Below, piece after piece: positions 16,559-20,798 of a stretch of DNA of 20,798 nt (its first letter is position 1; each line of letters begins with the position of its first letter). The position numbers were made by a program, and so were the translations under genes. The DNA lies in the IMG/VR virus record IMGVR_UViG_3300035034_000273, positions 1 through 20,798 of that record. One strand, written 5' to 3'. A model generated the notes under the pieces. The model was not told where the DNA came from, made no database searches, and saw nothing but the letters and a program-made list of their open reading frames with translations. This DNA comes from a virus.

Positions 16559-18538
16559 TTATTTTTTAATTTTTTCTGCAAGATAATCCCAGAAGGCGGG
16601 CCAGTCGATGTTTTCCATCTCAAACTGCTTGATGCAAGTTATGTACGCAACTATCTCAACGCCTGCATGGGTGTACACGGTTAAATCCCACAATTCATTG
16701 GCCGAACCGCTCGGCCGATACCATTCGTATGATACCTGGCCTCTGGCGTCCTCTTTCGACCTCCGGTACTCTGCTGTCAGTTCCTTAAGAGCCTTGTCCG
16801 AGGTGTCTACCGGGGCATTGAAGTGGTATTTCGGCTGGTCTCCGAGCGTATCAGCCCATACCCTGCGCAGCGTCGGCGCGATGCGGTCTTTATAGAGGTC
16901 AACCTTGATCTGGAAGCCATAGCCCCCAGCCTTCGTCTGGAACTCCTCAAACTCTCTGATCCGGGATCCTTTGCTAAGCTCAGCACGCCCCAGGATCGGA
17001 AATACCATAGATTCCAGGTACTGGGCGCAGAATGTACGGACCGCGTCCTTCGCGAAGTTAGAGTCGATGAATGTCGCGTATATGCCGTACTCGATATCGT
17101 TGTCAGACGTGTATTTCTTCTCCTCGATCAGCTTCGAGAGCTCAGACCAGCACGTATCCGTGGACTCTCTGGCATCTTTAGCCGGTATTTCGTGGTAATC
17201 GATGACGTACGTCCTAAGCCCCCTGGTGATGCCTGTAACCAGTACCGACAGGTATTCCTGCTGCACGTCAACCGTGCATGTCAGCATGAGAATCTCAGAA
17301 GTAGAATACTCAAGTGCGTAGGCGTTCGGAATCTCTCCCATCCGGTATACGGCTCGACGGTGTGACGAAACATGCGTGAACCGGACGCGGTCTCCGATCT
17401 CCTCGAACGGCCAGCCTTTGACGTTATTTACGAAACGCTGGTACTTGCCGATATCTATAACCTGCTTGGCCTCGTTATCGTAAGCCTCTAAAAACCTCCT
17501 GACGCAGTCTGTCCACGACATAAAACCGATGGGCGAATAGAAGGCTGGTAAATGGTAGCTGCGGATGTAAATGTCCTTCGGGATCGCGGTAGGTCTCCAT
17601 AAAGCCCCGTTATCCGCGTGGAACAGATACGCCTTGTCGTGCTCGAAGTATTCGGCGGAGCAGTTCTTGCATTTGTAGTGAACGCTTTCCTTGACCAGAA
17701 CGCCTTTCTCCGTCTCAAAAGAGATGCCGTAGTGCTTGCCCGCTTCGTCCTTTCCCCGCCACTCCAGGAACTGCTCGAGCCCACATGATTTACACGCTAC
17801 AAAATATTTCCTGCGGTCGCCTGCCAGATACGCCTTGTACGTCTTGGATGTCTGCTTGATAAGGGGCGTCGATCCGCGCAGAATCTTACGTTGTCCGGTA
17901 TACGCACTTGTACGGTCATCTGTGAGTGAGTCCGGGTCCCCGTCGCGGCCGACTTTAAGCGGCCAGCCGTCGAGTTCGTCTTTCAGCATCAGCAGGATAG
18001 AATGAGAGCGCATTTTATTGGCGTTCTGGGCGCCTATAGGGATCATAAAGCCCCCTCCCTCCCACTGTATTTGCTCTTTGGTCTTACCGGTCTTACGGTG
18101 GTTCCCTTCGTCCGAGCTCTTAATCAGGTGGCCGAAACCGGACAGGTCGAGCATGGGTATTATATTATTCTCGATACGCTGCTTCACGAGTTCCGCGTCC
18201 GCTGTCACCAGCATACACGGGTATATCTTCAGGTGGGCGATGTAGTACAGGAGAATCGATTCGATCAGGGAGACCGTATACGTCAACTGGACACCCTTCA
18301 GAAGTGTGACCTCCCGGATCGGGGACCGCATGGAAAAGCAGTTTAAAATCTCCCGCATATAGGGGTTGACATCGTACCGCATTGGCCCTGGCCGAGACGT
18401 AACGGCAGAGGACAGCGTCCGGTGCTCCTCGATGAAGTCTACCGGCTCGATGTGCTTGATCTCTTCGGTTATCTCTTCGACCTCGCGCACCAGCCAGTCC
18501 ATGCCGACGGTACCCACATTGAAATTAGCGTTTAACAA
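16559..18538 (-). CDS. Terminase large subunit (lambda GpA family)
   Basis: A 659-residue packaging ATPase and nuclease. The likely Walker A region is VTLLKGVQLTYTVSLIES (about 77-94), with no lysine at the usual GKT position but K81 before it. The Walker B is at about 180-190 (SILLMLKDELDGW). A zinc ribbon has CxxC at 249/252 and CxxC at 290/293. The nuclease domain starts at LTCTVDVQQEYL, with Asp424 a candidate metal ligand. Other motifs include SAYTGQRKILRGSTP near 211 and YEWYRPSGSANELWDLTVY near the end. The ORF opens at TTG 18538, just after an in-frame stop; a GTG and an ATG lie 8 and 14 codons in, none with a good ribosome site, so the exact start is uncertain. Confidence 0.9.
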   Translation of the reverse strand: MLNANFNVGTVGMDWLVREVEEITEEIKHIEPVDFIEEHRTLSSAVTSRPGPMRYDVNPYMREILNCFSMRSPIREVTLLKGVQLTYTVSLIESILLYYIAHLKIYPCMLVTADAELVKQRIENNIIPMLDLSGFGHLIKSSDEGNHRKTGKTKEQIQWEGGGFMIPIGAQNANKMRSHSILLMLKDELDGWPLKVGRDGDPDSLTDDRTSAYTGQRKILRGSTPLIKQTSKTYKAYLAGDRRKYFVACKSCGLEQFLEWRGKDEAGKHYGISFETEKGVLVKESVHYKCKNCSAEYFEHDKAYLFHADNGALWRPTAIPKDIYIRSYHLPAFYSPIGFMSWTDCVRRFLEAYDNEAKQVIDIGKYQRFVNNVKGWPFEEIGDRVRFTHVSSHRRAVYRMGEIPNAYALEYSTSEILMLTCTVDVQQEYLSVLVTGITRGLRTYVIDYHEIPAKDARESTDTCWSELSKLIEEKKYTSDNDIEYGIYATFIDSNFAKDAVRTFCAQYLESMVFPILGRAELSKGSRIREFEEFQTKAGGYGFQIKVDLYKDRIAPTLRRVWADTLGDQPKYHFNAPVDTSDKALKELTAEYRRSKEDARGQVSYEWYRPSGSANELWDLTVYTHAGVEIVAYITCIKQFEMENIDWPAFWDYLAEKIKK

Positions 18539-18569: not shown

Positions 18570-19343
18570 TCACTTGTCACCTCCTAGCTTGCGTACTTCT
18601 CGGGCTATTCGTGCCTTCATAGGCTTAAAGAATCCGGAGAGCCTCACCTGCACCGCGGTTTCGCACTCCTCGCGGGTCTTGCCCAGCTTGTGAAGCGTTC
18701 TCAGCTCCTGTTCGATGGTTTTGGCTCCGTCGGTGAGCAATTGCCTATGGCAGCCGTCTATAGGCGCGATTACGCCCTTCTTTACGATGTCTTTGTTTAT
18801 CAGTTCGCCGAGCGCCGTGGAGTTAGCGATCCGGTTTTTGAAAATGTCCTCCATCTTTTTGACGGCTTCGAGCCACTTGGTAAACTCTGCGTCGGTACCG
18901 AAAATGGTAACCAGGTCGTCGAGGCTCATGTGTGCCAGCTTACGGATGTCTGTCGGGAGGTGCGCGACCATAGTTTTATGGACGTACGATCGGACCAGCC
19001 CAAATTGAACTGTTTCGTCTGGTTCGCGTCGGACGTTGTCTATCAAGTCCTGGATCGAGTAATGGCGCCTCTCCGCTGCGCTCTGACGGCGCTTGCCGCC
19101 CGTTTGGATATGGACGTCGGGTCCAGGCTTAGAGGGCTTCTCCGTCTCTGGGGGCTTAGGTGGCTTCAGGCCCTGCTTCTTGGCGATCTTCTCCATGTAG
19201 GCGATGGCCGCAGGATGGTGTGGGTCGATGCTGCCACTCAATACAGCAGGCTCGAGAGGTCGCTTGCCCTGGGATACGGCAAGTGTGATAGACTTGGGCG
19301 ATACTCTAGCCAGCTTTGCGAATTTAGATTTAGATAGTAACAT
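18570..19343 (-). CDS. Probable terminase small subunit
   Basis: A 257-residue protein directly upstream of the large terminase. The start ATG 19343 has AAGGGGA about six bases upstream; the longer frame beginning at 19502 runs through the RNA gene and is rejected. The N-terminus MLLSKSKFAKLARVSPKSIT resembles a helix-turn-helix or winged-helix DNA-binding start, as in Nu1-type small terminases. A proline-rich, low-complexity linker (LKPPKPPETEKPSKPGPDVH) lies near 79-98. The rest is helical and basic. Family membership is inferred from position and the HTH-like start; no strong signature is seen. It should recognise the packaging site and recruit the large subunit. Confidence 0.6.
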   Translation of the reverse strand: MLLSKSKFAKLARVSPKSITLAVSQGKRPLEPAVLSGSIDPHHPAAIAYMEKIAKKQGLKPPKPPETEKPSKPGPDVHIQTGGKRRQSAAERRHYSIQDLIDNVRREPDETVQFGLVRSYVHKTMVAHLPTDIRKLAHMSLDDLVTIFGTDAEFTKWLEAVKKMEDIFKNRIANSTALGELINKDIVKKGVIAPIDGCHRQLLTDGAKTIEQELRTLHKLGKTREECETAVQVRLSGFFKPMKARIAREVRKLGGDK

Positions 19344-19358: not shown

Positions 19359-19393
19359 AAAAAAGTGCAGACGGCAGGATTCGATTCCTGCAC
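19359..19393 (-). terminator. Intrinsic terminator at the end of the small RNA
   Basis: On the minus strand GTGCAG (19393-19388) can pair with CTGCAC (19370-19365), directly followed by TTTTTT (19364-19359). Within it a GCAGGA/TCCTGC hairpin is also possible. The same bases form the acceptor and T-arm in the tRNA-like fold, so the two structures exclude each other. The ribosome site of the small terminase gene follows the T-run. Confidence 0.55.
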
Positions 19394-19468
19394 GATTTCC
19401 CCGTAGCACGTAACGAGAATGGTACTCTCCGGCTGTCACACCTGTGTCTCTATTCCACCACGTCTGCT
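19359..19468 (-). ncRNA. Small RNA gene with tRNA-like ends
   Basis: A near-consensus promoter places the RNA start at about 19468, and an intrinsic-terminator-like hairpin with six T ends at 19359, giving about 110 bases. Positions 19467-19461 (GCAGACG) pair perfectly with 19373-19367 (CGTCTGC), as a 7-bp acceptor stem, followed by A. It continues TGGTGGAATAG like tRNA-Leu positions 8-18, has a GTG/CAC D-stem and a T-arm-like GCAGG...CCTGC hairpin with CGAA in the loop. The middle does not fit: the candidate anticodon stem GGTGT/GTACC would have a 12-base loop, and a stronger hairpin GAGAGT-ACC-ATTCTC competes. The T-arm is one base too long and no CCA is encoded. It is either a degenerate class II tRNA or a tRNA-like regulatory RNA. 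Confidence 0.6.
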
Positions 19469-19474
19469 GATGTA

Positions 19475-19502
19475 AGTATATCACACTTTTCTGATATGTC
19501 AA
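19475..19502 (-). promoter_or_regulatory. Strong sigma70 promoter for the small RNA
   Basis: On the minus strand TTGACA (19502-19497), 16 bases, TATACT (19480-19475), with TGA just before the -10 as an extended -10 element. The -35 is perfect and the -10 five of six. The predicted start at about 19468 is the first base before the acceptor stem, so the promoter seems dedicated to the RNA; read-through could also serve the terminase genes. Confidence 0.7.
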
Positions 19503-19506
19503 ATGG

Positions 19507-20223
19507 CTATCTTAATCCGGACGCTCTGGACGCTCTGTCCAGCTGGCGCTTAAGGTTCTGCATGTGGAACTCGGGCATTCGACGCATAGTGCGTATCCGG
19601 GCCGGTTTGAGCCAGGGGGTAGGGGGTATGCGGACAGACTTCTTTTCCATCTGGTGAACCATTTTAATTTTACGTGATCTTTTCTTCCGGCCCTTGACAT
19701 GATAGATGCCTGAGCTGCCGCTTTTAGTGTTCTTCAGGTAAACAAATTTATTGGTTCCATATGCGGCATTCTGGACAGCCTTTGCATTGCCGAGTGGGGT
19801 CCCGTCGGATATCTGATCGCGGGGCATTCGTATGTTCCGCAGCTTCTTCCGGGACATCGGCGCTTTAAACTTAGGCGAGCCTTCCGGTTCATTGGATGCG
19901 AACGCCGTCGGGATCGGCACTGTGGAGTTTCCGGCTGTAGGGTTTCGGACCCCTCCGTATTCCTGGGTCGCCATGTACTCTTCAGTCGATCCGGTCGATG
20001 ATATAGGGTTCACTAAATTGTTAGCTTTCTTGAAACCTATCGACCGACCCGTCCAGTTACTGCGCAGGATGAAGTGGCGGGGGAGATTGTGTCTAGCGTC
20101 CTGCATCGTGTTAACTGCAAGATCGTTAGTTGTGTCTCTCACCGCGTAGTCTACGCCTCGGGTACCGAGGATATTAAGCATCCGCTGGTATTGGACCATT
20201 TTTCTCAAATCTACTTTTATCAT
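19507..20223 (-). CDS. Basic structural protein, possibly minor tail Z-like
   Basis: A 238-residue, very basic protein, the first gene of the operon. The ATG 20223 (MIKVDLRKMVQY) is preferred; a GTG two codons earlier is the alternative, and neither has a clear ribosome site. The N-terminal part, VRDTTNDLAVNTMQDARHNL near 28-47, resembles the start of minor tail protein Z and gp10-like neck proteins, in which a helix of alanine/asparagine-rich type is followed by an R/K-rich domain. A loop with EYMATQEYGGVRNPTAGN near 83-100 fits gp10/Z-type completion proteins. The C-terminus has many R and K residues. A structural role is inferred; a place ahead of the terminase is unusual, since Z normally follows FII. 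Confidence 0.5.
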   Translation of the reverse strand: MIKVDLRKMVQYQRMLNILGTRGVDYAVRDTTNDLAVNTMQDARHNLPRHFILRSNWTGRSIGFKKANNLVNPISSTGSTEEYMATQEYGGVRNPTAGNSTVPIPTAFASNEPEGSPKFKAPMSRKKLRNIRMPRDQISDGTPLGNAKAVQNAAYGTNKFVYLKNTKSGSSGIYHVKGRKKRSRKIKMVHQMEKKSVRIPPTPWLKPARIRTMRRMPEFHMQNLKRQLDRASRASGLR

Positions 20224-20229
20224 AACCAC

Positions 20230-20262: not shown

Positions 20263-20352
20263 AGATAGATAGATAGACTTAGATAGATTCTTAGATAGAT
20301 TTGTAAGTGCTTGGTATTTAACTACTTAACTGTACTTTCTATCTATCTATCT
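20263..20352. repeat. GATA-type tetranucleotide inverted repeat
   Basis: AGATAGATAGATAGA at 20263-20277 is the exact reverse complement of TCTATCTATCTATCT at 20338-20352. Both are tandem four-base repeats. The copies lie 60 bases apart and flank the first arm of the longer inverted repeat. They could form a stem or serve as repeated binding sites. Confidence 0.85.
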
Positions 20353-20539
20353 AGGAATAGTACATATTAGTATACAATAACATATATATATACATACAGG
20401 TTATACATATACATGATAATAACGTGTAGTACAGGTATAATATACATACATATAGGGAGCATGGGGGGTTCTTAGATAGAAAACGCTATTTTGCTTCATA
20501 AGTCATTGTGGTTACAGGCACTTACAAATCTATCTAAGT
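20290..20539. repeat. Exact 21-bp inverted repeat with a 208-base AT-rich centre
   Basis: Positions 20290-20310 (CTTAGATAGATTTGTAAGTG plus C) and 20519-20539 are exact reverse complements over 21 bases, and the match continues imperfectly outwards. The CTTAGATAG core also occurs at 20278 and near 20470, so there are four copies. Between the arms the DNA is strongly AT-rich and full of TATA-like steps. No gene is seen within. Possible roles are late promoter control, a packaging site recognised by small terminase, or an origin. Confidence 0.9.
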
Positions 20540-20559
20540 TTCTATCTTGAAAACCAATG

Positions 20560-20768: not shown

Positions 20769-20798
20769 TGTGCGAGGGGCGGAGTGCGAAACGGATAG

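Follow-up and report, generated by a model that had tools for sequence, protein, structure and literature searches.

A tRNA-Leu-derived RNA gene upstream of phage terminase genes, a candidate tRNA mimic with an exchangeable core

The window analyzed here, a complete IMG/VR virus record of 20,798 bases, carries just before its terminase genes an RNA element that, judging from its sequence, is derived from tRNA-Leu and has kept the outer shell of a tRNA while losing the ability to decode. The explanation that we prefer, and to which we give somewhat better than an even chance as a whole statement, is a phage tRNA mimic, that is, an independent tRNA-Leu-derived RNA gene in which a non-decoding shell encloses an exchangeable core. 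It is supported by an end-to-end match to a tRNA-Leu covariance model and by a family of elements in other phage contigs that share the altered shell, with covarying stems and unrelated cores.

Genomic context and packaging end

The window encodes a GpA-type TerL, a lambda-type portal, a sheath, and a tape measure protein, and perhaps represents about half of the genome of a contractile-tailed phage. The minus strand is the direction of its genes (Table 1). An earlier note, made from the sequence alone, had placed the terminase genes directly after the RNA gene, and this is the order that we found, with the terS-position open reading frame followed by terL. The call of the former rests on its place before terL and on its similarity to genes so placed; its C-terminal part resembles phrog_13700, and its start is backed by the alignment with L003, the closest relative, whose TerL is 70% identical to that of the window phage.

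TABLE 1 Features of the tRNA-like element and its surroundings (positions in the window)
Feature	Position	Strand	Remarks
Neck/minor-tail gene	19507..20229	-	Stops just short of the promoter
-35 box TTGACA	19497..19502	-	Promoter match
Extended -10 box TGATATACT	19475..19483	-	TG 19483-19482, TATACT 19480-19475
tRNA-Leu-like RNA	19366..19467	-	Acceptor base 1 through discriminator A
5' acceptor strand GCAGACG	19461..19467	-	7/7 Watson-Crick with 19373-19367
D-arm	19444..19458	-	3-bp stem GUG/CAC; loop GAAUAGAGA of 9 nt, two bases short; signature of the family
52-nt core	19392..19443	-	Stands in for anticodon and variable arms
T-arm GCAGG-AAUCGAAU-CCUGC	19374..19391	-	Loop of 8 nt
3' acceptor strand CGUCUGC	19367..19373	-	94 nt downstream of the 5' strand
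T6 run	19359..19364	-	Putative transcript end
terS-position gene	18570..19343	-	ATG at 19343; Shine-Dalgarno AAGGGG 19356-19351
terL	16559..18538	-	GpA ATPase and nuclease domains
Probable packaging end (cos right flank)	20769..20798	-	CTCGCACA 22 nt from the contig end

The probable packaging end coincides with the end of the contig. The offset of CTCGCACA from that end is identical in 19 relatives and the motif has a single copy in the window; with a gapped PWM of the cos flank the true end ranked just third on its own strand, and it was the offset test that decided. In related contigs, the packaging end lies ~87 nt before terS, and dozens of them begin at a GTTTTGATTCnnCCGCGC...CTCGCACAAA motif. 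This motif is found family-wide, at the contig starts of L002, L012-L016, and L023-L103; where contigs are uncut, GGTACTGTGGAGG and a stretch of variable, partly palindromic sequence come before it. The window phage thus has its cos upstream of the neck gene, and the tRNA-like element, 1.4 kb from the packaging end at 20798, is outside it. Adjoining cos there is also a 570-nt noncoding region (20263-20547) with TAGATAGA repeats and a 33-nt inverted repeat (91%; 20281-20313/20515-20547), which is a possible terminase-binding or replication site.

Structure of the element

The earlier note had described a perfect 7-bp acceptor-like stem and a T-arm-like hairpin, and both are indeed there, with all 15 shell pairs Watson-Crick and pair probabilities of 0.87 to 1.0. 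Only one place in the window, the element itself, has a T-arm directly enclosed by a perfect 7-bp stem; shuffled windows give 0.53 such sites each, or 0.007 when TCGA is also demanded in the loop. The defects that had been read in the arms were seen as well: two nucleotides are missing from the D-loop, the T-loop is 8 nt long, and a normal anticodon arm is absent. The fold of the 52-nt core is uncertain. In our models it may fold into an enlarged arm (GUGUGAC/GUUACGU, bulge AGCCG, GAGAG/UUCUC) plus a small variable arm (ACGG-GGAAA-UCGU), and a full cloverleaf with the enlarged arm at the anticodon position lies 1.5 kcal/mol above the minimum free energy (MFE) structure. MFE z-scores were uninformative (-1.0 for the element).

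Descent from tRNA-Leu and loss of decoding

A tRNA-Leu covariance model (R1), for which ten tRNA-Leu genes from phages and bacteria were used, matched the element with 35.6 bits (E value of 2.9e-7), its positions 1 to 84 falling exactly on 19467-19366. The runner-up site in the window scored 8.2 bits, and genuine tRNA-Thr genes scored 33.5 under the same model. This end-to-end match supports descent from tRNA-Leu, which the earlier note had suggested from a tRNA-Leu-like opening. The global alignment to an Escherichia coli leuX-type tRNA scored above 2000/2000 structure-keeping nulls, and so did the one to argV, which probably owes its score to the T-arm; the leuX sequence used was later matched by L116. 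General-purpose searches gave a different picture, as the Rfam search of the element stayed below the curated RF00005 threshold with nothing even at an E value of up to 10, and ARAGORN made no tRNA call matching the element, just low-score, wrongly bounded intron-tRNA calls. The covariance-model search that had been proposed as a check was positive for our custom tRNA-Leu model and negative for the Rfam models.

The element shares with type II tRNA-Leu (RF00005) its full-length homology, the 7-bp acceptor stem, U8, G10, A14, R15, A21, the 3-bp D-stem, a possible variable arm, the T-arm, and discriminator A73. It differs in the D-loop, where a 2-nt deletion leaves G18 and G19 no longer adjacent; in the T-loop, where 8 nt replace the 7-nt UUCRANY; and in the 52-nt core, where there is neither a 5-bp anticodon stem nor a 7-nt anticodon loop. 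By these sequence features, the element is not a decoding tRNA.

A family of tRNA-shell RNAs

We searched IMG/VR for exact matches to a D-arm pattern taken from the window element, GTGGNGGAATAGAGACNC, in which the 11-24 pair was left free, and obtained 26 sites on 24 contigs (family D-arm signature GUGGYGGAAUAGAGACRC, taken from the window). Bases 11 and 24 are complementary at 25 of the 26 sites (21 C-G and 4 U-A), with about one-quarter expected by chance, and at most sites the six preceding bases plus G make up an acceptor 5' strand whose complement sits after a T-arm. To be extracted, an element needed 6 or more of the 7 acceptor pairs; 20 elements passed, the window element and 19 others, 18 of which have 7/7 acceptor pairs and 5/5 T-stem pairs when all 20 are counted. 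The 7-bp acceptor stems differ in sequence between carriers, the T-loops are mostly the 8-nt [A/U]AUCGAAU or near variants of it, and the cores range from 40 to 195 nt.

Among 16 distinct shells, 99.2% of the cells are paired and double changes are seen at 10 of the 15 pairs, giving a covariation score of 0.683 versus 0.192 +/- 0.025 in shuffled alignments (0/500) and at most 0.152 in slid ones. The D-arm block is invariant by construction, as the hits were chosen on it; since D-arm and acceptor pairing were preselected, the stronger evidence comes from the sequence diversity of the acceptors and from the unselected 11-24 pair. Likewise, the collection was restricted to exact matches to a single D-arm, so the size of the family is a lower bound and may be biased. 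With a model made from 12 other members, the two halves of the window element were the two best matches in the window (21.5 and 19.8 bits), in two pieces because the insert splits the match.

ARAGORN called none of the extracted elements, and an Rfam search over eight family loci found just the element of L130. The family pattern had no match in 398 Pseudomonadota genomes, and BLAST of the window element against phages, plasmids, and these 398 genomes returned chance or T-arm matches only. Longer exact patterns from the element had no match in IMG/VR, nor did two family elements in a BLAST search of the annotated phage collection. We found no description of the family in the open-access literature, which is not proof of absence.

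The neighbors of the family elements include genes for an Erf-like annealing protein, a UvsX-like recombinase, a helicase, and head proteins, and from such unrelated neighbors we can conclude that the family is not tied to the terminase. The window phage is unlike the other carriers in the type and position of its promoter, which is sigma-70-like, while several family loci have upstream TTTGAA motifs and may belong to Bacteroidota hosts. Downstream of its family element, L129 has a second tRNA-Leu-like RNA (2505-2602) with normal D- and T-loops and a remodelled anticodon region, and second model matches are present also in L132, L134, and L139. In L132, ARAGORN predicts a permuted tmRNA with the tag GNVLQMNRPQVRLAA at 1832-2203, likewise downstream of the family element.

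The family bears directly on whether the element is simply a broken or interrupted tRNA. The degenerate tRNA that the earlier note had offered as one option, i.e., a tRNA-Leu pseudogene in decay whose promoter is a fossil, would explain the indels in the D- and T-loops and the lost anticodon arm, and an intact tRNA-Leu(UAA) exists upstream of the neck gene in a related phage (L079). However, both loop changes recur with covarying stems in many phage contigs, which disfavors a merely degenerate tRNA, and the window copy itself retains 15/15 Watson-Crick shell pairs and a near-consensus promoter, making this a very unlikely origin. We assign the same low probability to a real tRNA with an intron or insert in the core, the removal of which would restore the anticodon arm: the spread of core lengths between the shells would suit it, but nearly all members have the 8-nt T-loop and no adjacent G18G19, and in the structures inspected cutting out the window insert yields no 7-nt anticodon loop. 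The tRNA mimic that the earlier note had also put forward is, in its non-decoding form, the reading that the model match and the covarying family support.

Core turnover

Some carriers are close enough to compare flanks and cores. In L127 and L135 the 250 nt upstream are 95% identical and the last 60 nt 100% identical, while the cores (60 and 142 nt) have 80% identity versus 83% for shuffled sequences. Similarly, L129/L132/L134 on one side and L131/L140 on the other share acceptor, flanks, and shell around unrelated cores, and the exact core sequence of the window element is unique to the window phage. As read from these alignments, the element combines a constant frame with an insert that can be exchanged, and the rapid turnover of the core suggests conflict with hosts. 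The longer cores of L140, L141, and L142 have AAAACGAGGCGT-n-ACGCCTA in common just upstream of the T-arm and may form a subclass with a conserved hairpin.

Promoter, transcript ends, and the terS locus

The TTGACA box, 16-nt spacing, and extended -10 box claimed in the earlier note are all present upstream of the element, with 11/12 consensus matches. It is the only site of the window with at least 11/12 matches, and shuffled windows give 0.23. From the usual promoter spacing, the predicted +1 falls at 19468/19467, on acceptor base 1 or one base earlier, which agrees with the start that had been proposed. At the other end, the six T's of the proposed "hairpin plus six T" lie 2 nt past the acceptor helix and 9 nt past the T-arm hairpin, but a simple intrinsic terminator was not found at this run. 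An alternative terminator pairing, GUGCAG:CUGCAC, was rejected, as it is ~10 kcal/mol less stable than the MFE structure and has a probability of 0. From these signals we infer that transcription from the element's own promoter would extend from acceptor base 1 to the T6 run, producing an RNA of ~102 to 109 nt; with such a start, an RNase P cut would be unneeded.

In related phages, it is the promoter and not the RNA that recurs before terS. L003 has a perfect TTGACA-N17-TATAAT there, followed by a 222-nt leader, and lacks the tRNA-like RNA, so the comparison with relatives that had been suggested as a check bore out the former and failed to find the latter; none of the 92 related loci scanned has such an RNA before terS. 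In 44 of 69 distinct related terS genes, a TANNNT -10 box ends 5 to 10 nt (mostly 6 to 7) before the ATG, a closeness from which we can predict leaderless terS mRNAs. These genes lie beside cos and are often without a Shine-Dalgarno motif. As promoters are common at terS among relatives, the window promoter is unsurprising, and the surprise is the RNA; the strength that had made the promoter look odd is confirmed, and its oddness is lessened by those 44 genes.

The same observations could point to a cis-acting 5' leader, with the promoter driving terS and the folded RNA and T-run acting as an attenuator or stability element, since related terS genes usually own a promoter, L003 keeps one with its leader, and just 3 nt separate the T6 end from the terS Shine-Dalgarno sequence. 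We regard this role as unlikely, as the RNA is missing in L003 and before terS at the other related terminase loci, family members adjoin unrelated genes in other phages, and no stable competing terminator hairpin forms. A regulator of terS more generally, one of the options of the earlier note, is a possibility that is weakened by L003, where the promoter is present and the RNA missing. Antisense targets of the element in the window amounted to three 9-mers, which is the chance level.

Comparison with known RNAs

tmRNA consists of tRNA-like ends around a non-tRNA body, and the window element has the same general layout, but it is too short and has no tag frame, and ARAGORN found no tmRNA at the element. 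The pRNA of phi29 is a small phage RNA near packaging genes, and the window element too adjoins such genes. A packaging RNA, which the earlier note had listed as an option, or a cos feature at the DNA level would fit this position next to terS, before which the relatives have their cos. Nevertheless, the terminase is of another type than that of phi29 (TerL is GpA-type), the element has no Rfam packaging-RNA match, it is not conserved with the terminase, and family members elsewhere are away from terminase genes. The cos flank sits at the contig end, 20798, and with the RNA absent from L003 and cos so distant, a packaging or cos role is unlikely, to the point that we hold it for scarcely credible.

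Other tRNA-like pieces were observed in phage genomes. In phAPEC8-like phages, an unannotated element lies between tRNA-Asn and tRNA-Thr (L106 255-332, L108 506-582). It is like the window element in its 7-bp acceptor, 8-nt T-loop (UAUCGAAU), and broken anticodon region and unlike it in its length of 78 nt, its place within a tRNA cluster, and its D-arm; it is kept at 90 to 100% identity across 85 phage records, nearly all of Escherichia phages, with a fold z-score of -3.3. A Streptococcus prophage (Javan131; L107 589-628) has an intergenic T-arm/acceptor piece like a tRNA 3' end, which recurs in related phages.

Possible function

Strongly expressed phage tRNAs counter tRNA-targeting defenses (PMC11555353, PMC10264068). 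The window element resembles them in being phage-borne and in having a strong promoter, in its case a predicted one, but those tRNAs decode and the element has no anticodon; for the phage tRNA-Tyr active against retron-Eco7, mutations in the anticodon or the stem-loops abolished activity (PMC11555353).

In the tRNA mimic, acceptor stem, D-arm, T-arm, and discriminator A were kept while decoding was lost. We can envisage that host proteins or nucleases that recognize tRNAs would bind the shell, and that the core, freed from decoding, would diversify or carry an effector part. The shell without an anticodon, the turnover of the core, and the precedent of defense-countering phage tRNAs together favor a mimic or decoy; a decoy or anti-defense role is the use to which we lean, tentatively and at well below an even chance. 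The evidence would allow a decoy, an inhibitor, or a guide scaffold, the window copy being a stand-alone unit before the terminase genes.

It is an even bet, in our estimate, that these elements represent an undescribed class of phage RNA, in which a constant tRNA-like shell and a hypervariable core make a modular mimic that diverse phages would use in the arms race with the host. tRNA finders overlook tRNA-shaped RNAs that are unable to decode, and the D-arm core with the 8-nt T-loop provides a concrete signature for finding them. Such tRNA-shell RNAs could account for some of the gaps without annotation in phage genomes and in tRNA islands, and the combination of a conserved shell with freely swapped cores is suggestive of a use of the tRNA shape by phages beyond translation.
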